From Candidatus Aminicenantes bacterium (GTDB taxonomy: Bacteria > Acidobacteriota > Aminicenantia > Aminicenantales > UBA4085): a stretch of 32,627 bases of DNA. Below, one piece after another: positions 1 through 32,520 of this stretch (within the stretch, counting starts at the first letter, position 1; every line of letters begins with the position of its first letter). The notes below the pieces were generated by a model. The model saw only the letters and a program-made list of their open reading frames with translations. It ran no database searches and had not been told where the DNA came from. The position numbers and the translations under genes are program-made. The stretch is taken from the NCBI GenBank assembly GCA_026393855.1, contig JAPKZJ010000027.1, positions 1 to 32,627 of the forward strand, read 5' to 3'.

Positions 1-1397
1 ACGGCGGTGAACTCGCCCTTAAAGAACGACACGGCGACTTGATTGCCGGCCTTAACGTCCGCGACGCTGATGATCGGGCGGCGGGCGGCTTCCGGCGCGG
101 CGCTTTCGCGGCCCCAAACCAGGGTGTAGCCCTTCTTCAGGACCGCCAGGGGGCTTTGGGCGTGCAGGCCGGCGGCCAGAGTCTCCCAATCTCCCCGCCA
201 GGCGGCCAGACGGGCCCGGAAGACCGAGGCGATCCGCTGCTCGACCAGGGCGGCCCGCGACGAGCCGTCCCGCAGGCGGGCCCGCAGCACGGATGCCATC
301 CGCTCTTCCCCCAGCACGGCGCGGGAGCGGGCTTCGGCGATCTGGCGCTGGCGGCTGCGGATCGCCTCCCAGGCTCGCCCTTCCAGGTCGTCAACGCCTT
401 GCTCCAGCCCGCGCAGGAGGAGACGGAAGCCCTGGAAGGCGCGATGCTGGGCCAGAGCGGTCAGCTCGTGGCGCCGCTCCTGTACGGAGAAGCGCAGGCT
501 TTGCCCGGCCCGGCGCTCCAGGTTGGCGATCCGATCGGCGAAGGCCTCCTCGGTCGCCACGACCAGCTCGGCCGCGGCCGTGGGGGTCGAGGCCCGGATG
601 TCGGCCACGAAGTCGGCGATGGTGAAGTCGACCTCGTGCCCGACGGCCGAGATGACCGGGATGGGCGAGGCGGCGATGGCGCGGGCGACTCGCTCCTCGT
701 TGAACGACCAGAGATCCTCGATCGAGCCGCCGCCCCGGCCGACGATAAGCACGTCGAGGCCGGGCATGGCGCCGAGCGTCTCGATCCCGGCCACGATATC
801 GTCGGCCGCGCCATCGCCCTGGACCCGAGCCGGATAGATCAGAACATGGAGCTTGGCCGAGCGGCGATCCAGGGTCCGCAGGATGTCGACGATGGCCGCC
901 CCGGTGGGCGAAGTCACAATCCCGATGCGCTTGGGCCGGAGCGGGAGCTTGCGCTTGCGGGCCGGGTCGAACAGGCCTTCGGCCTTGAGCTTCTCCTTGA
1001 GCTGTTCGAAGGCCAGCTGAAGGGCGCCCTTGCCCTTGGGCTCAACCCGGTCGATGATCAATTGATAGGCGCCGCGCGGCGGATAGACGTCGATCTTGCC
1101 GCGGCAGACGAACTGCTGGCCGTCCTTGATCTCGAACTTGAGCCGGGCGGCGTCGCCCCGCCAGATGACGGCCGGGATGGAGCTGCCCGCGTCTTTGAGG
1201 GTCAGGTAGATGTGGCCCGAACCGTATTTGCGGGAGTTGGAGACTTCGCCTTCGACCCAGACCTGGGGGAAGGCGGTCTCGAGGGCGATCTTGATGACCG
1301 AGGTCAGCTCGGTGACCGAGTAGATCTTGTCTTTGACGACGAGCGTGCCGGGGCGGACGACGTCGCGGCCGAGAGGGGGGGCGTTCTCTTCCTTCAT
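1..1397 (-). CDS. xseA: Exodeoxyribonuclease VII large subunit (3' end beyond window)
   Basis: Reading the reverse strand from the ATG at 1397 gives an uninterrupted 465-codon frame that runs off the left edge. XseA is the catalytic large subunit of exonuclease VII, which degrades single-stranded DNA to oligonucleotides in the cytoplasm together with XseB. The N-terminal OB-fold is recognisable (QVWVEGEVSN, then SGHIYLTLKD). It is followed by the exonuclease core motifs GIVTSPTGAAIVDILR, GRGGGSIEDLWSFNEE and VGHEVDFTIADFVAD with RASTPTAAAE. A long charged, Arg/Glu-rich helical region then leads to the C-terminal strand block (LKKGYTLVWG). The family is usually 400-500 residues, so only the last few codons are missing. 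The neighbouring rny-ymdB pair commonly precedes xseA in other genomes, but here a plus-strand cysQ separates them. Its own promoter would lie in 1398-1460. Confidence 0.96.
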   Translation of the reverse strand, partial: MKEENAPPLGRDVVRPGTLVVKDKIYSVTELTSVIKIALETAFPQVWVEGEVSNSRKYGSGHIYLTLKDAGSSIPAVIWRGDAARLKFEIKDGQQFVCRGKIDVYPPRGAYQLIIDRVEPKGKGALQLAFEQLKEKLKAEGLFDPARKRKLPLRPKRIGIVTSPTGAAIVDILRTLDRRSAKLHVLIYPARVQGDGAADDIVAGIETLGAMPGLDVLIVGRGGGSIEDLWSFNEERVARAIAASPIPVISAVGHEVDFTIADFVADIRASTPTAAAELVVATEEAFADRIANLERRAGQSLRFSVQERRHELTALAQHRAFQGFRLLLRGLEQGVDDLEGRAWEAIRSRQRQIAEARSRAVLGEERMASVLRARLRDGSSRAALVEQRIASVFRARLAAWRGDWETLAAGLHAQSPLAVLKKGYTLVWGRESAAPEAARRPIISVADVKAGNQVAVSFFKGEFTA

Positions 1398-1464: not shown

Positions 1465-1539
1465 TAGGGGTCAGGTCTTAAGATATGAGATATCTAATGT
1501 TTCAGTTGAGAAAACTTATATCTTAAGACCTGACCCCTA
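1465..1539. repeat. Family A palindromic repeat, copy 1
   Basis: Left arm TAGGGGTCAGGTCTTAAGAT is answered at the right end by its reverse complement, giving about 22 paired bases before the arms diverge. It fills most of the 154-nt divergent gap between xseA and cysQ and ends only 12 nt before the cysQ ATG. It shares its arm sequence, including the inner AAGATATAAGTTTTCT on the right side, with copies 2 and 3, but the loop is unrelated. Confidence 0.9.
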
Positions 1540-1551
1540 TTGTTTGTTAAA

Positions 1552-2397
1552 ATGAAGCCGATGGACTCGATGACGCGCATTGCCCTGGCCCTGCGGGCCG
1601 CCGTCGCCGCGGGCGACGAGATCATGGCTGTCTATGGTGGGGAATTCGCGGTCGAACACAAGGATGACCGCTCCCCCCTGACCGAGGCGGATCGACGGGC
1701 CCATGCCCGCATAACCGAGATTCTCCTCCCCGCGGGCGTGCCCATCCTCAGCGAGGAAGGCCGCGATATCCCCTACGCAGAGCGCCGCGGGTGGCCGCTG
1801 CTCTGGATTGTGGATCCCCTCGATGGGACCAAGGAATTCATCAAGCGGAACGGCGAATTCACCGTCAACATCGCCCTGGTCCGGGAAGGGCGGCCTGTTT
1901 TCGGGGTGATCTACGCCCCGGCCGCGGACGTCCTTTATCTGGGCGAGGAGAAGCTGGGCGGATTCAAACTTGCGGCCGACAGGGCCATCCTGCGGGCCAT
2001 GGTTTCGCCGGGGGGGAATCCCGTCGAACGGTTTATCCGCCTGGCCATCCGGCTTCCGTTTGAATCGGAAGCGCGGCCATTTACGGTCGTGGCCAGCCGC
2101 AGCCATCGCAGCCCCGAGACCGAGGCTTATATCGAGGCACTGCGCTCCGAACACGGTGATCTGATCCTGGCCTCGAGCGGCAGTTCGCTCAAATTGGCGC
2201 TGGTGGCGGAGGGTTCGGCCGACATCTATCCCCGGTTCGCGCCGACTATGGAGTGGGATACCGCCGCGGGTCAGGCCGTGGCCGAGGCCTCGGGCGCGCG
2301 GGTTTTATCGGCTACGGACGGCACCCCCCTGGTTTACAACAAGCCCGCTTTGACCAACCCCTGGTTCATCGTAAAGGGGTCAGGTCTTAAGATATAA
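1552..2397 (+). CDS. cysQ: 3'(2'),5'-bisphosphate nucleotidase CysQ
   Basis: A 281-residue member of the inositol monophosphatase/FBPase superfamily. CysQ removes the 3'-phosphate of adenosine 3',5'-bisphosphate left over from sulfate assimilation and carrier-protein phosphopantetheinylation. The metal-binding signatures are in order: SPLTEADRRA (about residues 41-50), SEEG (67-70), IVDPLDGTKEF (86-96) and the C-terminal EWDTAAGQAVAEASG. Start choice is ATG 1552; ATG 1561, ATG 1570 or an upstream TTG at 1540 are possible, and no clear ribosome-binding site is seen because the repeat at 1465-1539 abuts the start. The last residues (KGSGLKI) and the stop are encoded by the left arm of the repeat at 2375-2470, so the native C-terminus appears to have been replaced or extended. 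The gene is oriented against its neighbours and bracketed by two related repeats. Confidence 0.95.
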   Translation: MKPMDSMTRIALALRAAVAAGDEIMAVYGGEFAVEHKDDRSPLTEADRRAHARITEILLPAGVPILSEEGRDIPYAERRGWPLLWIVDPLDGTKEFIKRNGEFTVNIALVREGRPVFGVIYAPAADVLYLGEEKLGGFKLAADRAILRAMVSPGGNPVERFIRLAIRLPFESEARPFTVVASRSHRSPETEAYIEALRSEHGDLILASSGSSLKLALVAEGSADIYPRFAPTMEWDTAAGQAVAEASGARVLSATDGTPLVYNKPALTNPWFIVKGSGLKI

Positions 2398-2470
2398 GTT
2401 TTCTGCCAACGATCGTTGACGTTAAGAGAGAACAATCTCTTCGAAACTTATATCTTAAGACCTGACCCCT
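2375..2470. repeat. Family A palindromic repeat, copy 2
   Basis: Arms of about 27 bases (AGGGGTCAGGTCTTAAGATA and onward through TAAGTTT) are nearly perfectly complementary. The loop holds two smaller hairpins: the palindrome CAACGATCGTTG, and AAGAGA pairing with TCTCTT. The left arm codes the cysQ C-terminus; the right end lies 3 nt from the ymdB stop. It sits between convergent genes and could act as a bidirectional transcription barrier; on the plus side it is followed by ATTTTAG, a weak U-tract. Confidence 0.92.
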
Positions 2471-2473
2471 ATT

Positions 2474-3265
2474 TTAGTTAATGATGATCAATTCGCGGGT
2501 GATGGACAAAGCCCGGCCCGAATCCGAGTCGATCTCGATATAGACCGCCGACAAGAACAGGTTGTCCTTGGCCGGCTCGAACCGGACCGGCCGCGCCAGC
2601 AGGAACTTCTCGATGGCCTGCTCCTTCTGGATGCCGATGACCGCGTCCCGGCTGCCGGCCATGCCGGCGTCCGTGATATAGGCCGTGCCGCCCGGCAGCA
2701 CCCGCTCGTCGGCCGTGGGCACGTGGGTGTGGGTGCCGACGACGGCCGAGACCCGCCCGTCCAGGTACCAGCCCATGGCTTGCTTCTCCGAAGTCGCTTC
2801 GGCGTGCAGGTCGACGAGGATGCACGGCGTCTCGCGCCGCAACGCCTCGACCGCGGCGTCGGCCGTCCGGAACGGGCAGTCCAGCGCCTCCATGAAGACC
2901 CGCCCCTGCAGGCTCAGCACACCCAGCTTCCGTCCGCCCGCCCCCGTCGCCACCGTCGTGCCCCGCCCGGGGTTTCCCGGCGGGTAGTTGGCCGGCCGCA
3001 GCAGCCGCGGCTCGTTCTCCATGAAGGCGATACCTTCCTTCTTGTCCCAGATATGGTTGCCCGAGGTCAGGACGTCGAGGACGGCGAAAAGGTCGCGGCC
3101 GATTTCCGTGGTCATGCCTGCGCCGCCCGCCGCGTTCTCGCCGTTGGCCACGACGAAGTGGGGGCGGTACTTCTCGCGCAGCCCGGGCAGGGCGGCGCGC
3201 AGGGCGTTGCGGCCCGGCCGGCCGATGATGTCCCCGACGAATAGGACCCCGGTTTTATCGGGCAT
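2474..3265 (-). CDS. ymdB: YmdB-type metallophosphoesterase (TIGR00282 family)
   Basis: A 263-residue calcineurin-like phosphodiesterase. Family members hydrolyse 2',3'-cyclic nucleotides and affect biofilm and sporulation decisions in Bacillus. Metal ligands are visible in the expected order: GDIIGRPGR (D12), ANGENAAGG (E43, N44), SGNHIWD (N70, H71), [12 protein letters not shown] (H154) and [11 protein letters not shown] (H179, H181). Length matches the family (about 260). The ATG lies 11 nt inside the end of rny, indicating translational coupling; rny and ymdB are neighbours in many bacteria. It is the last gene of the long minus-strand cluster, and the family A hairpin lies immediately after its stop. 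Confidence 0.95.
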
Positions 3266-4823
3266 ATTCGACCGCCCGCATCTCGCGGATCACGGTGACT
3301 TTGATCTGGCCGGGATAGTCGAGCTCGTTCTTGATCTTGGTGGCGATATCCTTGGCGATCAGCGCGGCCCGGTCGTCGGCCACCTTGCCGGCGTCGACCA
3401 TGATCCGGATCTCGCGGCCCGCCTGCAGGGCGAAAGCCTTGGCCACCCCGTCGAAGGTCTTGGCCAGGCCCTCGAGCTTTTCGAGCCGCTTGATGTAGGT
3501 CTCCAGCAGCTCTCGCCGCGCCCCCGGCCGGGCGGCCGACAGGGTGTCGGCCGACTGGACCAGGACCGCTTCGATGGAGGGGAAGTCGACGTCCCGATGG
3601 TGCGAGGCGATGGCGGCCACGACGGCCTCCTTCTCGCCGTACTTGCGGCAGAGCTCGACGCTGAGCTCGGTGTGGGTGCCCTCGACGTCCCTGTCCACGG
3701 CCTTGCCGATGTCGTGCAGCAGCCCCGCTCGCAGCGCGGTCTGGGTATCGAGCCCCAGCTCCGTGGCCATGGCCGCCGACAGAAAGGCGACCTCCTTGCT
3801 GTGCTGGAGGACGTTCTGGCCGTAGCTGGTGCGGTAGCGCAGCCGGCCCAGCATCTTGATCAGCTCGGGGTGGACATTCTGGACCCGCAGCTCGTAGGCG
3901 GCCGACTCGCCTTCCTGGCGGATCGTCTCCTCGAGCTCGGCCTTGACGTTCTCCACGACCTCCTCGATCCGGGCCGGGTGGATGCGCCCGTCCAGGACCA
4001 GCCGCTGGATGGCCAGCCGGGCGGCCTCGCGGCGAATCGGATCGAAGCTCGAGAGAATAACCGCCTCGGGCGTATCGTCGACGATGATGTCGACCCCGGT
4101 GGCCATCTCCAAAGCCCGAATGTTGCGCCCCTCGCGGCCGATGATGCGGCCCTTCATGTCGTCGCTGGGCAGGTCCACGACCGAGACGGTCGATTCGACC
4201 ACGTGCTCGGCCGCCGAGCGCTGGATGGCGCCGCTGATGATCTCGGCCGCCAGAATCCGGCTCTTGGACCGGGTCTCTTCCTCGATCCGCTTGACGACCT
4301 GCACGGACTCGAGCCGCGCCTCGTCCTCGATCTTCTTGATGATCTGGCCTTTGGCCTCTTCCTGGGTCAGCCCGGAAATGCGCTCCAGCTCGGCGATCTG
4401 GGCCTTGGTCATCTCGGCGACCTTGGCTTCCTCGGTCTCGATCTCCTTCTCCTTCTGCAGAAGGCGCTTTTCCTTGCCCGACAGCTCCCGCTCGCGCTGG
4501 TCGACGCCGCGATACTTGCGGTCGAGCGTCTCTTCCTTGTGGATGAGCCGGCGCTCCATGTCGGTCAGCTTGCGCTTCCTGTCCTGGGTCAGGCGCTCGA
4601 ACTCGGCGTCGGCCCCGGACAGCTTCTGGCGGCCCTTTTCCTGGGCGTCCTTGACGATGCGTTCGGCCTCCTGGCCGGCCTTGTCGACGACGGATTTGGC
4701 TTCCTGTCCGGCTTTCAGCAGGCCCTTGGCGCCGGAGCTTTTTTTGATCAGGATGAAGAGAACGGCGGCCGCGAGGATGACGAGCGCGGCCAATAGTCCG
4801 ATGGCGATCGGATCCTTGAACAT
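3255..4823 (-). CDS. rny: Ribonuclease Y
   Basis: A 522-residue membrane-anchored endoribonuclease that initiates mRNA decay. Architecture is classical: one N-terminal membrane segment (about residues 7-26), a long coiled-coil region rich in K/E/R (about 30-200), a KH RNA-binding domain with [15 protein letters not shown] (about 225-285), and an HD phosphohydrolase domain with QHSKEVAFL (H341) and [10 protein letters not shown] (H370, D371). A GGAGG motif stands about 9 nt before the ATG. The stop overlaps the ymdB start. It follows zapA after a 47-nt gap. Confidence 0.98.
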
Positions 4824-11842: not shown

Positions 11843-11959
11843 AAAGGGCCAAACACACTCACACCCCCAGCGAGGGTGTTCGTTCCGGCCGGCTCGGTCG
11901 CTCTCCCTGCCAAGGGCAGGGAACCGTGCCCGCTCCCTCGCCGATGGGTTTGGCCCTTT
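11843..11959. repeat. Family C palindromic element, copy 1
   Basis: Terminal inverted repeats AAAGGGCCAAAC (11843-11854) and GTTTGGCCCTTT (11948-11959) bracket about 93 nt. Inside are an ACACCC-CCAGCGA-GGGTGT hairpin, the block TCCGGCCGGCTCGGTCGCTC, a TCCCTGCC/GGCAGGGA hairpin and the block CCCGCTCCCTCGCCGA. All but the third are shared with copy 2 at 28632-28887. It occupies most of the 271-nt gap between tRNA-Val and the phosphoesterase gene, which holds no convincing gene. Confidence 0.85.
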
Positions 11960-12033: not shown

Positions 12034-12516
12034 GTGATTGGGATTTTATCCGACTCCCACGACAATCTGAACGCCATCAGGGATGCCGTCCGCCTGATTC
12101 GGGCCGCCGGTTGCGACCTGCTCATCCATGCCGGCGATTTCGTGGCTCCCTTCGCGGCCAAGGAACTGGAGGACGCCGGATGCCCGGTGAGGGCCGTTTT
12201 CGGCAATTGCGATGGGGAAAAAACGGGGTTGCGCAAGGCTTTACAGCCGTTCGGGTCGATCCGGGAGGCTCCGCTCGTCTTGGAACACGGTGGGCGCAAG
12301 ATCTTGGTCGCCCATCTGGATGTTTCGGTGGCTCAATATATCGCCAACAGGGGATACGATGTCGTCGTTTACGGCCATACGCATCGGGCGGAGGTCCGGC
12401 GGTCGGGCGGGACGGTCATCATCAACCCGGGGGAGACGGGCGGTTGGGTGACCAAAAAGAGGACAATCGCTCTTTACGATCCCGCGGCCCATGAAGCGGA
12501 GATCATCCCGCTTTAA
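12034..12516 (+). CDS. YfcE/MJ0936-type metallophosphoesterase
   Basis: A 160-residue single-domain calcineurin-like phosphoesterase. The metal-site motifs occur in order: ILSDSHDN (D-x-H), LIHAGDF (GD), VFGNCDG (GNxD), and VVYGHTHRA (GHTH), ending with IINPGE. Family members hydrolyse phosphodiesters such as bis-pNPP; the physiological substrate is unknown. GTG 12034 is chosen because the family begins with the beta strand VIGILSD right after the initiator. The open frame continues upstream through the repeat but without family similarity. The stop TAA precedes the family A repeat by 3 nt, and it is convergent with rfaE1. Confidence 0.92.
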   Translation: MIGILSDSHDNLNAIRDAVRLIRAAGCDLLIHAGDFVAPFAAKELEDAGCPVRAVFGNCDGEKTGLRKALQPFGSIREAPLVLEHGGRKILVAHLDVSVAQYIANRGYDVVVYGHTHRAEVRRSGGTVIINPGETGGWVTKKRTIALYDPAAHEAEIIPL

Positions 12517-12519
12517 TAA

Positions 12520-12625
12520 TAGGGGTCAGGTCTTAAGTTATAAGGTTTCTAGGATTATTGGCGGAAATTGTCAAAAAAAGCAAAAAATTGCTTGAGAAAA
12601 CTTATATCTTAAGACCTGACCCCTA
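12520..12625. repeat. Family A palindromic repeat, copy 3
   Basis: Arms begin TAGGGGTCAGGTCTTAAG on both strands and continue to about base 30 with two mismatches (GTTATAAGG against GATATAAGT). The loop is AT-rich. The first three bases of the right arm (read on the minus strand) are the TAG stop codon of rfaE1; the left end is 3 nt past the phosphoesterase TAA. It separates convergent genes. Confidence 0.92.
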
Positions 12626-13597
12626 ATTGTAGCGGTTGAGGGACTCGATGAGCTCCTCGGGAGAGCAGGTCGCCGTGCCGATTTTGCCGACGACCACACC
12701 GGCCGCGGCGTTGGCGATGACCGCGGCCTCCAGGATCGAGGCCCCGCCCAGCACCGCCAGGGCGGCGGCGGCGATGACCGTGTCCCCGGCGCCCGTCACG
12801 TCGAACACTTCGCGGGCGATGGTCGGGATGTGGATCGGCTTCTTGTTCCGCTCGAACAGCGACATGCCCTGCTCGCCCCGCTTGATGATCAGGTAGAGCG
12901 TCTCGATCAGGCTCATGATCTCGCGCCCGGCCCGCTCGACCTCGGCGTCGGTCAGGCAGGCGTGCCGGACGACCTTGGCGGCCTCGTGGTGGTTGGGCGA
13001 GATGAACGTGATCGGCGAATAGATGGCGAAGTTCTCGACCTTGGGGTCGACGAAGACGGGGATGCGCCGGGCCTTGGCCAGGGGCAGGACCCGCTCCATG
13101 AGCGTCCGGGTGACGATGCCCTTGTTGTAGTCCGAGACGATGATCCCCTCGGGCTCGTCCTTTTCGATGAAAGCCAGAATCCGGGCTTCGATCTCGGCCG
13201 GGACGGGCTTTTTACGCTCCTGATCCACCCGGACGACCTGCTGGTGATGGGCGATGATCCGGGTCTTGACGGTGGTCGGCCGGGTGCGGTCGACTAGGAT
13301 GCCGCGCGTTTCGGCCGCGTTGCGCTTGATCCAGACGCCTTCGGCGTCGTCGCCGACGAGCCCGACCAGGACGGGCGAGGCGCCCAGCCCGGCCAGGTTG
13401 CGCTCGACGTTGCCCGCTCCGCCCAGGGCTTGGGTGCTGCGCAGGACTTCGACCACCGGGACCGGGGCCTCGGGCGAGATGCGCGAAACCGTGCCCCAGA
13501 TGTACTTATCCAGCATCAGGTCGCCCAGAACGAGTACGCGCCGGTCCTTGAACTTCCGGACCAGGCGCCGCAGCTTGGCGGTATCGCAGGTGATCAT
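12623..13597 (-). CDS. rfaE1: D-glycero-beta-D-manno-heptose-7-phosphate kinase (RfaE1/HldA)
   Basis: A 324-residue PfkB-family sugar kinase. It phosphorylates heptose-7-phosphate at O1 in the ADP-L-glycero-D-manno-heptose pathway feeding LPS inner core. The N-terminal pattern VLGDLMLDKYIWGTVSRISPEAPVPVV and the ALGGAGNVERNLAGLG substrate region are diagnostic of RfaE rather than ribokinase. The anion-hole/base motif DVTGAGDTVIAA is near residue 266. Length fits the kinase-only form; no nucleotidyltransferase domain is attached. It is the last gene of a coupled trio with the PHP protein and the ligase-like protein (ATGA overlap upstream). The stop TAG lies in the repeat arm. Confidence 0.95.
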   Translation of the reverse strand: MITCDTAKLRRLVRKFKDRRVLVLGDLMLDKYIWGTVSRISPEAPVPVVEVLRSTQALGGAGNVERNLAGLGASPVLVGLVGDDAEGVWIKRNAAETRGILVDRTRPTTVKTRIIAHHQQVVRVDQERKKPVPAEIEARILAFIEKDEPEGIIVSDYNKGIVTRTLMERVLPLAKARRIPVFVDPKVENFAIYSPITFISPNHHEAAKVVRHACLTDAEVERAGREIMSLIETLYLIIKRGEQGMSLFERNKKPIHIPTIAREVFDVTGAGDTVIAAAALAVLGGASILEAAVIANAAAGVVVGKIGTATCSPEELIESLNRYN

Positions 13598-15976: not shown

Positions 15977-15985
15977 ACAAAAGAA

Positions 15986-16088
15986 TAGGGGTACAGTATA
16001 CGTAAATCCCGATTTCCAGCGAGATCTGAGCCGCCCTTTCGTTGATGGAGAACAAAAGAAATAGGGATTTACGTATACTGTACCCCTA
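15986..16088. repeat. Family A palindromic repeat, copy 4 (divergent arm subtype)
   Basis: Arms TAGGGGTACAGTATACGTAA plus ATCCC are perfectly complementary over 25 bases. They share only the outer TAGGGGT with the other copies. The right arm encodes the last seven residues (LIGVQYT) and stop of the GT9 gene. On the minus strand the hairpin is followed by TTCTTTTGTT, resembling an intrinsic terminator. Confidence 0.9.
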
Positions 16089-17148
16089 TTAATTTTTCGC
16101 CGGCGGCGGCGACTTCGGCCGGGGTGATCGTCCGCAGGCATCGGTAATCCGCCGAGACGCAAACCCGCTGCGGGCAGGGCCGGCAGTCCATATCCTTTTG
16201 AATCAGGATGGCCCGGCCTTCCGTCCGCCAGGGCGCGAAATGAGCGATCTCGGTCGGGCCGAAGAGGGCCACGATCGGCGTCGGCGTCGAAGCGGCGATG
16301 TGCATCGGCCCGCTGTCCGGACCGACAAAAAGGGCGGCTCGGGCGACAAGCGCCCGCGTTTCGATCAGGTTGAGCCGTCCGGCCAGGCCAGCGACGCGGC
16401 CGCCGGCCGCGGCTCCGGTTATTACTTCTTCTTGGCGGGTGAGGTCGCCGGGGCCCCCGATCAAAGCGACTTTAAAATCGGGCCGGCGGGCCAGCGCCGC
16501 GGCAAGAACCGCATGATTTTCGCTTCCCCAGTCGCGGAAGGCGTTGCCCGCCCCGACGTGGAGAACGGCGTACTTTTTGTCGGCCAGACCGAATTCCGCC
16601 ATGACGGCCCCGACCCGCGTCTTTTCCTCGGCCGTGGCTTCGGGCAATTGGTAGGCAGGGAGCGCCGCGTCGTTAAACTCGAAGCCCAGGGCGCGCACCA
16701 GCTCGGCGTGCGACTGGGCGCTGTGCCGGACGCCGCGCTCCGGCTGCCTCGGCACGGCGCGGTCGTAGAGAAAGCTCTTGCCGCGCAAGGCGTAACCGAC
16801 CTTGAGCTTGGCCCCGGAGAAGGCCGTGATCCAGGAGGCCCGCGGGCCGCCGTGAAAGTCGAGCACGGCGTCGAACCGCTCCCGGCGCACTTGGCGGAGC
16901 AGGCCGAAGAAGGCCCGGCGGTCCTGCTTGGCCGGGACGGCCAGGACGCGGTCGACGGCCGGCAGGCCCTCGACCAGGCGTCGATAGGGCTCTTCGATCA
17001 GGTAGGTCAGGGCGGATTCGGGCAGAAACGATTTGAGCAGCGCCACGGCGGGAGTGGTCATGACGACGTCGCCGATGCGGCGCAGGCGGATGAGGAGGAT
17101 GTGGCGCGGGCGGGCGGGCTCAGCTTCGCGTCGGCCGGTCGGGCTCAA
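16069..17148 (-). CDS. Glycosyltransferase family 9 (LPS heptosyltransferase-like)
   Basis: A 359-residue GT-B enzyme of the heptosyltransferase family, which transfers L,D-heptose from ADP-heptose to LPS inner core at the cytoplasmic membrane. Seen: HILLIRLRRIGDVVMTTPA (residues about 16-34), VLHVGAGNAFRDW (donor domain), LIGGPGD, FVGPDSGPMHIAA and IVALFGPT. These are followed by the Cys-rich tail (DCRPCPQRVC, then C in YRCLRTI) typical of the RfaF group. The start is TTG 17148, 28 nt inside the Trm112-like gene, with AGAGG 8 nt upstream; no ATG precedes the first motif. The C-terminal LIGVQYT comes from the repeat. rfaE1 nearby makes its donor precursor. Confidence 0.93.
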   Translation of the reverse strand: MSPTGRREAEPARPRHILLIRLRRIGDVVMTTPAVALLKSFLPESALTYLIEEPYRRLVEGLPAVDRVLAVPAKQDRRAFFGLLRQVRRERFDAVLDFHGGPRASWITAFSGAKLKVGYALRGKSFLYDRAVPRQPERGVRHSAQSHAELVRALGFEFNDAALPAYQLPEATAEEKTRVGAVMAEFGLADKKYAVLHVGAGNAFRDWGSENHAVLAAALARRPDFKVALIGGPGDLTRQEEVITGAAAGGRVAGLAGRLNLIETRALVARAALFVGPDSGPMHIAASTPTPIVALFGPTEIAHFAPWRTEGRAILIQKDMDCRPCPQRVCVSADYRCLRTITPAEVAAAGEKLIGVQYT

Positions 17149-19355: not shown

Positions 19356-20632
19356 GCTTCAAATTCGACTGGAATCCGTTCGCCGACCAGCCGCACAACG
19401 TGGCCCCGCGGTCGGAGCGGATGCGGCATCATTACCGGCGCTGGCCGGTTTATCTGGGTATGCTGGGGTCCGACCTCGTTCACGGGCCGGCCATGGCCTT
19501 CCGATATTGGCGCAATCGCCGGCGCATGTACGGAGCGCCGGTCGTGATCCGGCCCGACATGTTTGCGGTTTCGGTCTCGCCCGAAGCGCTGCCGATCGGC
19601 GAGACCACGGCCCTTCTGCGCGAGATCGGCGTCCGCCAGACACTCTTCCGGGTTGCGTCGTGGGAGCGGGGGAAGCTGGCCGCAAGCGAAGCCTTTGCCC
19701 GCCGTCTGCGCGAAGCGGGGTTCGAGGTCGTTATCTCTATTCTCCAGCGCCGGGACGATGTGTTCGACGCGGCGGGCTGGACCGCTTTCCTCGAGGAAAC
19801 GTTCCGGAGGCTGGGCCCGATCGCCTCGGCCTTCGAGATCGGCCATGCCTGGAATCGGACCAAATGGGGCGTTTGGGATCACACCGAATACGTCAAGCTG
19901 GCCCGGGCCGCGGCCGCGGCGAGAGGCGGATCCGCGGCGAGACTCGCCGGTCCGGCGGTCATCGACTTCGAGTTCCACCTTTATCCGCCGGTGCTGCGGG
20001 CCGTGGAGTTCGACGTCGTGACGTCGCTTCTCTATGTCGACCGGATGGGCGCGCCCGAAAACGCCCAGGCCGGTTGGACGGCCGAGAAAAAGTTCGCTCT
20101 GTTCAAGGCCGCGGCGGGGTGCGGCCGGGTGAAAGATCCGGAGTTCTGGGTCAGCGAGGTCAACTGGCCGCTCGATGGCACCGGGAAATACTCGCCGGCC
20201 GCGGGCAAGCCGATGGTGTCCGAGGACGCCCAAGCCGATTATCTCGTTCGCTACTACATCCTCGGGCTTGCCTCGGGGCTCGTCGATCGGATCTATTGGT
20301 GGCAATTGGCCGCGCCGGGCTACGGGCTGGTGGATACGCGGGAGACGCCGGCCCGGCGCCGGCCCGCGTTTCACGCCTTTCGGACGATGGTAGAGAATCT
20401 TCAGGGCGCGGAATTCGTGCGCCGGGAGCAGCCGCGTGGAGGGAACGTCTTTTATTTCCGCAAAGGCGGATGCGAATTCGCGGTGGCCTGGACCAACGGC
20501 CCGGCTTTCAATCTGACGCTGGCTGCGGCGCCGGCCGCGGTGCTCGACCGCGACGGCGGGGCGCTTCCGGCCGCGCGGGTCGTGCGCGTCGACGGCCGCC
20601 CCCGCTATTTAATAGGGGGCAGGCCGGGTTAA
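19352..20632 (+). CDS. Glycoside-hydrolase-like TIM-barrel protein
   Basis: A 426-residue cytoplasmic protein without a signal peptide. The pattern of a clan-A-like glycosidase is visible: beta-strand/helix alternation, AFEIGHAWNRTKWG (candidate acid/base E162 with N168), IDFEFHLYP, and WVSEVNWPL (candidate nucleophile E269), ending in a beta-sandwich-like tail. I do not recognise the exact family. It is coupled to the kinase-like gene by ATGA, so a role in LPS or polysaccharide synthesis is inferred; it may have lost or altered activity. The final residues (LIGGRPG) and stop come from the left arm of a degenerate family A repeat. Confidence 0.7.
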   Translation: MSFKFDWNPFADQPHNVAPRSERMRHHYRRWPVYLGMLGSDLVHGPAMAFRYWRNRRRMYGAPVVIRPDMFAVSVSPEALPIGETTALLREIGVRQTLFRVASWERGKLAASEAFARRLREAGFEVVISILQRRDDVFDAAGWTAFLEETFRRLGPIASAFEIGHAWNRTKWGVWDHTEYVKLARAAAAARGGSAARLAGPAVIDFEFHLYPPVLRAVEFDVVTSLLYVDRMGAPENAQAGWTAEKKFALFKAAAGCGRVKDPEFWVSEVNWPLDGTGKYSPAAGKPMVSEDAQADYLVRYYILGLASGLVDRIYWWQLAAPGYGLVDTRETPARRRPAFHAFRTMVENLQGAEFVRREQPRGGNVFYFRKGGCEFAVAWTNGPAFNLTLAAAPAAVLDRDGGALPAARVVRVDGRPRYLIGGRPG

Positions 20633-20661
20633 TTCCGTCAAGAGTTAAGACCTGACCCCTA
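20613..20661. repeat. Family A palindromic repeat, copy 5 (short, degenerate)
   Basis: The right arm reads TAGGGGTCAGGTCTTAACTC on the minus strand; the left arm is decayed (TAGGGGGCAGGCCGGGTTAA). With almost no loop left it looks like a deleted or eroded copy. It lies between convergent genes: the left arm encodes the glycosidase-like C-terminus, and the right end is 1 nt from the beta-barrel protein's TGA. Confidence 0.75.
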
Positions 20662-22893: not shown

Positions 22894-22905
22894 GCAGGGA
22901 TTCCT

Positions 22906-22964
22906 TTGGAGGGGGAACCTTTGACGGGTTCCCCCTCCAACGCAATCGTCAAGGGGACGATTGC
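22906..22964. repeat. Family B hairpin, copy 1, with adjacent second hairpin
   Basis: A perfect 14-bp stem, TTGGAGGGGGAACC against GGTTCCCCCTCCAA, encloses the 7-nt loop TTTGACG. Directly after it GCAATCGTC pairs with GACGATTGC around a 5-nt loop (22942-22964). It lacks the longer left flank seen in the other family B copies. Confidence 0.9.
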
Positions 22965-23332: not shown

Positions 23333-23455
23333 ATGGAATTCGAACGGCGAAGGCTCCATGGAGGGGTAGCAGAACCGCCGGCGCGTAGCCGGCGGGGCGT
23401 TGGAGGGGAACCCCGCTAAAGGGTTCCCCTCCAAGGGAGTCCGAGCCCTTCTTGA
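23333..23455. repeat. Family B element, copy 2 (full-length unit)
   Basis: Order of parts: TGGAATTC, CTCCATGGAGGGG, a CCGCCGGC/GCCGGCGG hairpin (23375-23395), GGGGCG, the 14-bp stem TTGGAGGGGAACCC/GGGTTCCCCTCCAA with loop CGCTAAA (23400-23434), then AAGGGAGTCC and GAGCCCTTCTT. The same parts in the same order occur at 32388-32520. It ends 45 nt before the DUF1573 gene. Confidence 0.88.
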
Positions 23456-23499: not shown

Positions 23500-24279
23500 A
23501 TGAACCCAATGCGCGCCCGCCGGATCGTCCTCATCGCCCTCCTGGCCCTGACGGCCGCGGCTTCCTTCGCCGCGCCGGGCGCGGCCAAGGGGCCCAAGAT
23601 CGCCTTCAAGGAAGACGCCTGGAACTTCGGCCGGGCCAAGATGGGGGCCGACCTCGTCCACGAGTTCGCTTTCAAGAACGAAGGGGACGCCACGCTCAAG
23701 ATCATCAACGTCGAAACCTCCTGCGGCTGCACCGCCGCCCTTGTCTCGGATAAAAAGGTCGAGCCGGGGAAATCGGGCAAGATCAAGGTCACTTTCAGCA
23801 CTCAGGGCTACGCCGGCGAAGTCGTCAAGTACATCTATGTGGAGACGGACGACCCCGTCCAGCCGCGCGTCCAGCTCAAGATCACGGCCGCCGTCGACGT
23901 CCCGCCCCAGCCGCGGATCGATTTCGACCGCTACTCCTTCGATGGCGGCCTACTGGTCGAGGGCGACAGCCTGGTCGCCCCCATCACCGTCTACAACAAG
24001 GGCGAGCTGGAACTGAGGTTCGAGTGCCAGCTGACGGGCGCCCAGGTTCTCTTCGCCGGCAAGCCTGCCGCCTATCCGATCAAGGTGGCCGCCGGCAAGA
24101 GCGTCGAGCTGGTCATCAAGATGGACCTGGCCAACCGCATGGGCCCCATCCGGGAGTTCGCCCTGTTCAAGTCCAACGACCCGCTGCGGTCGACCATCTC
24201 GGTCAACCTGAACGGCTACATTGTGACCAAGGAACAGCTCCGCCAAGTGTTTCAAAAATACAAAGACTTGATCAAATAG
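23500..24279 (+). CDS. Secreted DUF1573-domain protein
   Basis: A 259-residue protein with an N-terminal signal peptide (MNPMRARRIVLIALLALTAA to about APG). The DUF1573 signature follows: DAWNFGRAKMGADLVHEFAFKNEG, then IINVETSCGCTAALVS (C75, C77) and VEPGKSGKIKVTF. A second beta-sandwich half starts at about residue 140 (FDRYSFDGGLLVEGDSL). The fold is ASPM/SPD-2-Hydin (Ig-like) type; function is not established, though it is commonly envelope-associated. ATG 23500 has GGGGAGGT 7 nt upstream. The final TAG is the first three bases of the family A repeat at 24277. Confidence 0.92.
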   Translation: MNPMRARRIVLIALLALTAAASFAAPGAAKGPKIAFKEDAWNFGRAKMGADLVHEFAFKNEGDATLKIINVETSCGCTAALVSDKKVEPGKSGKIKVTFSTQGYAGEVVKYIYVETDDPVQPRVQLKITAAVDVPPQPRIDFDRYSFDGGLLVEGDSLVAPITVYNKGELELRFECQLTGAQVLFAGKPAAYPIKVAAGKSVELVIKMDLANRMGPIREFALFKSNDPLRSTISVNLNGYIVTKEQLRQVFQKYKDLIK

Positions 24280-24338
24280 GGGTCAGGTCTCAACATTCAA
24301 CACTTGACCTTAATGTTGAATGTTGAGACCTGACCCCT
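24277..24338. repeat. Family A palindromic repeat, copy 6 (third arm subtype)
   Basis: A 25-bp perfect stem has outer AGGGGTCAGGTCT as in copies 1-3 but inner CAACATTCAACA, with a short loop. Its first three bases are the DUF1573 stop codon, and it ends 40 nt before the dprA start. Confidence 0.92.
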
Positions 24339-24378
24339 TCTTTGAGATTTTTAGCAGGGCGGCGGCGTCTATCTAGAC

Positions 24379-28631: not shown

Positions 28632-28887
28632 GGGGTTTGGGGGCCAAAGACGTTCGCTCCCCCAGCGAGGGAGCTCACTCCGGCCGGCTCGGTCGCTCCT
28701 CCTGAACTCTCACGAGAACTTGGGAATCGGAGAGTCATTGGAGGAGGCTACCATGAGGGGGAGGCAGCCCTTGGCGTTGGAGGGGGAACCCATCAATGGT
28801 TCCCCCTCCAAGGGAGTCCCCGCTCCCTCGCCGACCCTATGCTGAAGCATAGGGCTACAAAGCTCGTGGCTTTGGCCCCCAATACCC
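28632..28887. repeat. Family C palindromic element, copy 2, with a nested family B unit
   Basis: Terminal inverted repeats TTGGGGGCCAAAG (28637-28649) and CTTTGGCCCCCAA (28870-28882), with GGGGT flanks. Next to the left end is the hairpin GCTCCC-CCAGCGA-GGGAGC, then CTCCGGCCGGCTCGGTCGCTC as in copy 1. On the right are CCCGCTCCCTCGCCGA and a CCCTATGCT/AGCATAGGG hairpin (28835-28854). The middle is occupied by a family B unit (28740-28822). The xerC stop is 6 nt before the left end. Confidence 0.85.
28740..28822. repeat. Family B element, copy 3 (nested)
   Basis: The 14-bp stem TTGGAGGGGGAACC/GGTTCCCCCTCCAA with loop CATCAAT lies at 28777-28811. It is preceded by GGCTACCATGAGGGGGAGGCAGCCC and GGCG, a weaker match to the left flank of copies 2 and 4, and followed by the shared AAGGGAGTCC. 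Confidence 0.85.
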
Positions 28888-32387: not shown

Positions 32388-32520
32388 ATGGAATTCAAGC
32401 AGAAGAAGCTCCATGGAGGGGTGGCAGCCCCGCCGGCTTTAAACTGGCGGGGCGTTGGAGGGGGACCCGGCTAAAGGGTCACCCTCCAAGGGAGTCCCCC
32501 ATACCCCGAGCCCTTCTTAG
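32388..32520. repeat. Family B element, copy 4 (full-length unit)
   Basis: The same order of parts as copy 2: TGGAATTCAAG, GAAGCTCCATGGAGGGGTGG, a GCCCCGCC/GGCGGGGC hairpin, then the stem TTGGAGGGGGACCC/GGGTCACCCTCCAA with one mismatch and loop GGCTAAA (32455-32489), AAGGGAGTCC and GAGCCCTTCTT. The TACAG and CTAATT words 20-35 nt upstream are also shared with copy 2. Confidence 0.88.

Follow-up and report, generated by a model that had tools for sequence, protein, structure and literature searches.

The two inverted repeats that flank cysQ in the window (the whole stretch of 32,627 nt analyzed here, from a Candidatus Aminicenantes genome, G000) are ordinary members of a family of small mobile DNA hairpins located at gene ends throughout the genome. 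The locus as a whole is very probably best explained by miniature elements linked to a TIRYT-type transposase, together with a separate arrival of cysQ. The features are listed in Table 1.

Table 1. Coordinates of the repeat units and genes (window positions, unless a contig is named).
Feature	Position	Strand	Remarks
xseA, exodeoxyribonuclease VII large subunit	1..1397	-	TIGR00237, E 1.1e-132; gene cut by window edge
Inverted-repeat miniature element	1465..1539	.	short core, 71 nt counted from GGGG to CCCC; divergent xseA/cysQ gap
cysQ, 3'(2'),5'-bisphosphate nucleotidase	1561..2397	+	TIGR01331, PF00459; alternative start 1552
Inverted-repeat miniature element	2375..2471	.	94 nt from GGGG to CCCC; between convergent cysQ and ymdB 3' ends
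ymdB-like phosphoesterase	2474..3265	-	TIGR00282; stop codon 4 nt from the 2375-2471 element
rny, ribonuclease Y	3255..4823	-	TIGR03319, E 7.8e-206
Third full unit, arm subtype as in the cysQ-flanking pair	12520..12625	.	between convergent 3' ends
Unit of sister arm class (GGGGTCAGGTCTCAACATTCAACA)	24277..24339	.	59 nt
Y1/HUH transposase gene, 345 aa	contig C36, L036:12266-13303

Inverted-repeat units were found on both sides of cysQ, where the original prediction had placed them, each 71-94 nt long and reading GGGGTCAGGTCTTAAGATATAAGTTTTCT...reverse complement. The upstream unit had 31-nt arms (90% complementary) with 13 nt between them and folded at -46.3 kcal/mol (z -9.9). The downstream unit had 27-nt arms (100% complementary) with 42 nt between them and folded, on the plus strand, at -53.8 kcal/mol (z -10.9). 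Folding of three units gave one long hairpin each, with energies of -46 to -56 kcal/mol and z about -10. The repeats had been described as being of the same subtype, which held for the arms but not for the cores; these belonged to different sub-classes, and the two units are therefore not two copies of one identical unit. Elsewhere in the window, a kinase-like gene (12623-13597) took the last letter of its TAG stop, the G, from the unit at 12520-12625, and the unit at 24277-24339 shared the TAG stop of its upstream gene. A lone arm (TTAAGACCTGACCCCTA) without an exact partner was seen at a gene end at 20628-20661, with a half unit near 20645-20661, and probably represents a TTAAC-class unit that has decayed.

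Other repeats were also present in the window. A long inverted repeat at 15979-16095 (TAGGGGTACAGTATACGTAAATCCC; arms 92% complementary and 41 nt apart), at the end of a glycosyltransferase-like gene, belongs to another hairpin family. A palindromic repeat family (GGCGTTGGAGGGGGAACC...GGTTCCCCCTCCAA) occurred in four copies (22902-22959, 23396-23453, 28773-28830, and 32451-32508), and a 64-nt direct repeat (CCCCCAGCGAGGG...CCGGCCGGCTCGGTCGCT, 83% identical) at 11846-11909 and 28641-28704.

Half-sites (GGGGTCAGGTCTTAA, at most one mismatch) were counted 107 times in the own genome; the reversed control gave none. At least 38 full units (GGGGTCAGGTCT...AGACCTGACCCC, no longer than about 125 nt) were counted in G000. 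The congener G002 had 29, and G007, of the same family, had 23; G001 and G008 had a single unit each, and seven further members of the family had none. The counts leave out units with mutated ends, and the assemblies are fragmented, with contigs that may stop near such repeats. The backwards pattern gave 0 full units in every genome counted, so the repeats are not due to chance. Arm sequences were genome-specific across different genes, and the units of G002 read GGGGTCAGGTCT(AG/TA)AGATTCAAGATTTCT, an arm subtype of its own. Six close pairs of units (<1.5 kb) were observed against 0.6 expected by chance, and pairs bracketing about 1 kb also occurred elsewhere; bracketing of a gene is thus not special to cysQ. 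On contigs C74 (L107:210-1362) and C128 (L136:135-1284) of one assembly, two units enclosed a homologous segment, the arm classes being exchanged between the two sites; it would be a paralogue or come from a second strain. A literature search with the arm sequence returned unrelated papers only.

Three Y1_Tnp (PF01797) genes were found in the G000 genome. The one on contig C36 scored 41.5 bits (cut-off 23), and its product contains the HUH motif NHYHLF and a downstream tyrosine (TYAVNLSIYIHLNP); these motifs mark it as a Y1 transposase with a predicted catalytic tyrosine. On one side the gene was bounded exactly by TAGGGGTCAGGTCTTAAGATATAAGTTTTCT and on the other by almost the same sequence in inverted orientation; these terminal repeats lay at 12262(+) and 13497(-), with arms that matched over about 30 nt. 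The equivalent gene in G002 (C225) was flanked by that genome's own arm subtype, and the transposase gene of G007 sat among TTAACATTTAAC units; arms and transposase thus correspond to one another in three species. A Y1 gene of G004 (L077:2180) was accompanied by the arm GGGGACAGATCACTCAATCCCCGAATTCATA, resembling the G004 unit behind ymdB. The terminal repeat of the C36 transposase gene itself codes for the last residues of the protein (ENLYLKT) and for the TGA stop, and the same was seen in the G002 homologue (NLKT). The nearest NCBIfam model was the REP-associated tyrosine transposase (NF047646), with 66.1 and 68.1 bits, below the cut-off of 80, and no PDB relative of the transposase was found by sequence.

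The elements fit the described TIRtron/TIRYT kind with REPIN-like non-autonomous copies. The motif GGGGWSAS has been reported in the terminal inverted repeats of some groups of TIRYT genes (PMC3733652), and the arm GGGGTCAG fits it. As in TIRtrons, a Y1/HUH gene is bounded by long inverted repeats with this motif, and copies of the repeats are dispersed as dimers (at least 38 in G000, 29 in G002). Unlike in the described cases, a single genome here carries at least 38 dimeric units that fall into three arm classes, and its congeners have different arms. The likeness to TIRtrons was judged by the HUH/Tyr motifs, the flanking repeats, GGGGWSAS, and the dispersed dimers. With REPINs and RAYTs (PMC3116915; NF047646) the units share the form of short, hairpin-forming inverted-repeat doublets, extragenic, in high copy number, and associated with a Y1 transposase, but the small palindrome preceded by a GTAG tetranucleotide is replaced by 27-31 nt inverted repeats around a variable core. 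A GTAG-type REP/REPIN with RAYT was rejected, as the tag is lacking and the transposase falls under the NF047646 cut-off. Bacterial MITEs such as RUP, NEMIS, and Nezha, which are thought to be mobilized by a parent transposase (PMC3733652), are similar in size (70-120 bp), in having terminal repeats of about 30 bp, and in lacking coding capacity; in contrast to them, the parent here encodes an HUH/Y1 enzyme, and target-site duplication was not demonstrated.

A simple gene finder based on codon usage was applied to the surroundings of 68 units in G000 and G002. Most gene 3' ends beside a unit (72 of 78) were at -41 to +12 nt from the element, and in 42 of the 78 the stop codon came partly or wholly from the unit: 21 as TA/G of TAGGGG, 11 as TAA of GGTCTTAA, and the others at positions deeper inside the unit. 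At the 53 gene 5' ends, the positions of which are approximate, the distance to the unit was at least 12 nt with one exception. In convergent pairs, the host DNA besides the element had a median length of 6 nt, against 58.5 nt in ten element-free pairs. In tandem pairs, all units (33/33) were nearer the 3' end of the upstream gene, and none of 10000 uniform placements was as extreme. Some units were located in divergent gaps. The commonest flank was TA before GGGGTCAGG; no target sequence beyond this frequent TA and no clean empty site were found. A similar habit has been described for GTAG REPs, the termini of which supply a TAG stop (PMC3733652).

The order of genes around cysQ was as first described: the plus-strand gene (TIGR01331, 259.2 bits over a cut-off of 228.8, E 4e-77; PF00459, E 3.4e-43) lies between minus-strand ymdB and xseA, which matched TIGR00282 and TIGR00237. 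The ymdB loci were read in 30 genomes (G000, G002, and 28 relatives, 27 of them outside the genus). In 28/28 relatives xseA adjoined ymdB without cysQ, which confirms rny-ymdB-xseA as the recurrent order, and cysQ as a reversed insertion in a conserved cluster; it was found there, on the opposite strand, only in G000 and its congener G002. In the congener G001, about 19 nt separated ymdB from xseA, and a CysQ with 56% identity was encoded on another contig with no repeats near. The neighbor of that gene was searched for in G000 and G002 with no match, which by itself shows little. Other family members gave just weak matches of the wider phosphatase family. The nearest public relatives of CysQ were mostly from Bacteroidota (50-57% identity), among which the G000/G002 pair was also placed in the CysQ tree; an AU test of one acquisition in the genus against two favored neither (p 0.51), and the G001 gene may or may not be sister to the pair.

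The G002 site is half empty. Its cysQ has the same place and orientation and, upstream, other DNA with no unit; it keeps a downstream unit, so only half of the repeat-free arrangement expected if the original prediction were wrong is realized. This downstream unit is of the G002 arm subtype and starts at the same cysQ codon as in G000 (FIV-K/V-GSG), and an element may therefore predate the arrival of cysQ, with a possible role in the insertion. The cores of G000 and G002 at the cysQ/ymdB junction were unrelated (similarity rank 25 of 29). The DNA upstream of cysQ in G002 (L005:1389-1465) was GC-rich and partly palindromic (TACTCGCGAAGCGAGTGCGTGGGGAC); it was rejected as a second abundant repeat family, having few near copies in both genomes. 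Behind ymdB, G004 (L048) had a different hairpin element (GGGGACAGATCACT) 2 nt from the stop, and G011 had short palindromic DNA, both with cysQ absent there.

The downstream unit supplies the last six residues of CysQ (GSGLKI) and the stop codon. The C-terminus had been called rewritten, which is correct to the extent that about four residues (the repeat-free G001 protein ends in SEGR) are replaced by six, with the protein motifs intact. Given the position of units at gene 3' ends in general, this rewriting is a habit of the unit family. The cysQ start that aligned with the G002 start was 1561, 23 nt from the upstream element. No evident Shine-Dalgarno sequence preceded 1552 or 1561, nor was one found in G002; because G002 has no upstream unit, the earlier suggestion that the repeat removes the ribosome-binding site is unsupported. 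No promoter or terminator consensus was found in the region. Down-regulation of translation has been reported for Escherichia coli REPs located no more than 15 nt from a stop codon (PMC12306157). By analogy, the downstream hairpin right behind cysQ and ymdB, within the same distance of a stop, may modulate translation or protect mRNA 3' ends; unlike in the E. coli case, about half of the 3' junctions here have the stop partly or wholly inside the element.

Ten gene junctions, matched by both flanks, were occupied by a unit in both G000 and G002, against about 0.4 expected (an estimate from 39 and 29 units and an assumed number of roughly 3000 junctions). Their arms were species-specific and their cores mostly unrelated. 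The position agreed to the nucleotide on one side in some and differed by 5-20 nt in others. Core similarity was slightly above random (55 of 2000 random pairings were as high) and was carried mainly by one or two pairs; the test took in an eleventh pair (L107:5588/L133:1840) that on inspection was one small gene off. In-place conversion of orthologous units is thus weakly supported, since core similarity barely exceeded random pairing. We regard it as possible, though rather doubtful, that the same gene ends are repeatedly re-occupied, by replacement of units in situ or by very strong targeting of particular gene ends. If so, a mobile element would supply host stop codons time and again.

The bracketing of exactly one gene, foreign to the cluster, by two units of the same subtype had suggested a composite cassette or recombination between the repeats; the excess of close pairs also speaks for a cassette. 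In a cassette, the outer arms of the two units would have served as ends and cysQ would have been the passenger of one transposition event. G002 shares the insertion and has no such unit upstream, and the unit it carries downstream is of a different arm subtype, with a core that is unrelated. The different core sub-classes of the two G000 units, the G001 cysQ without repeats, the G004 hairpin behind ymdB without cysQ, and the like behavior of units beside many other genes also argue against a cassette, which we consider very improbable. As a recurring block, cysQ with both units was rejected, G002 having one unit and G001 none. Homologous recombination at a unit already present behind ymdB, a repeat-mediated entry other than transposition, is in keeping with the presence of a unit at the cysQ/ymdB junction, at the same cysQ codon, in both cysQ-bearing genomes, and with the hairpin or palindromic DNA in that gap in G004 and G011. 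For the same reason, namely the unit in both cysQ-bearing genomes, recombination on the cysQ/ymdB side during the original insertion retains some small probability. It is nevertheless unlikely, as no donor cysQ copy with an adjacent unit was found and the cores at the junction are unrelated, as expected for separate insertions. 

The strong folding and the extreme 3'-end bias would also suit hairpins that are not mobile but were selected at gene ends as transcription terminators or regulatory RNAs. Against this, no terminator-like site was found, the transposase gene is bounded by identical arms, the arms differ by genome rather than by gene, and divergent gaps also hold units; the probability of this explanation is accordingly low. 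Under the preferred reading of TIRYT-linked miniature elements and a separately acquired cysQ, both repeats would be non-autonomous REPIN/MITE-like elements with arms equal to the terminal repeats of the resident TIRYT-type Y1 (HUH) transposase gene, which probably spreads them in trans. Units persist almost only at gene 3' ends, where they abut or form the stop, and in short promoter gaps. We infer that cysQ, probably a Bacteroidota-like acquired gene, entered the ymdB-xseA junction in a separate event, before the divergence of G000 and G002. The convergent ends and the divergent gap made by its entry would then have been occupied by units, the downstream one giving cysQ its six-residue tail and stop and putting a strong hairpin behind both cysQ and ymdB.

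An unsupported cassette story is thereby replaced by a testable rule, that of a TIRYT-linked miniature element found on stop codons so regularly that dozens of host genes obtain stop codons and C-terminal residues from it. The paired genomes share sites and differ in arm subtype, which makes them a natural test case for distinguishing gene-end targeting from mere survival there, and for following the turnover of the arms along with that of the transposase.
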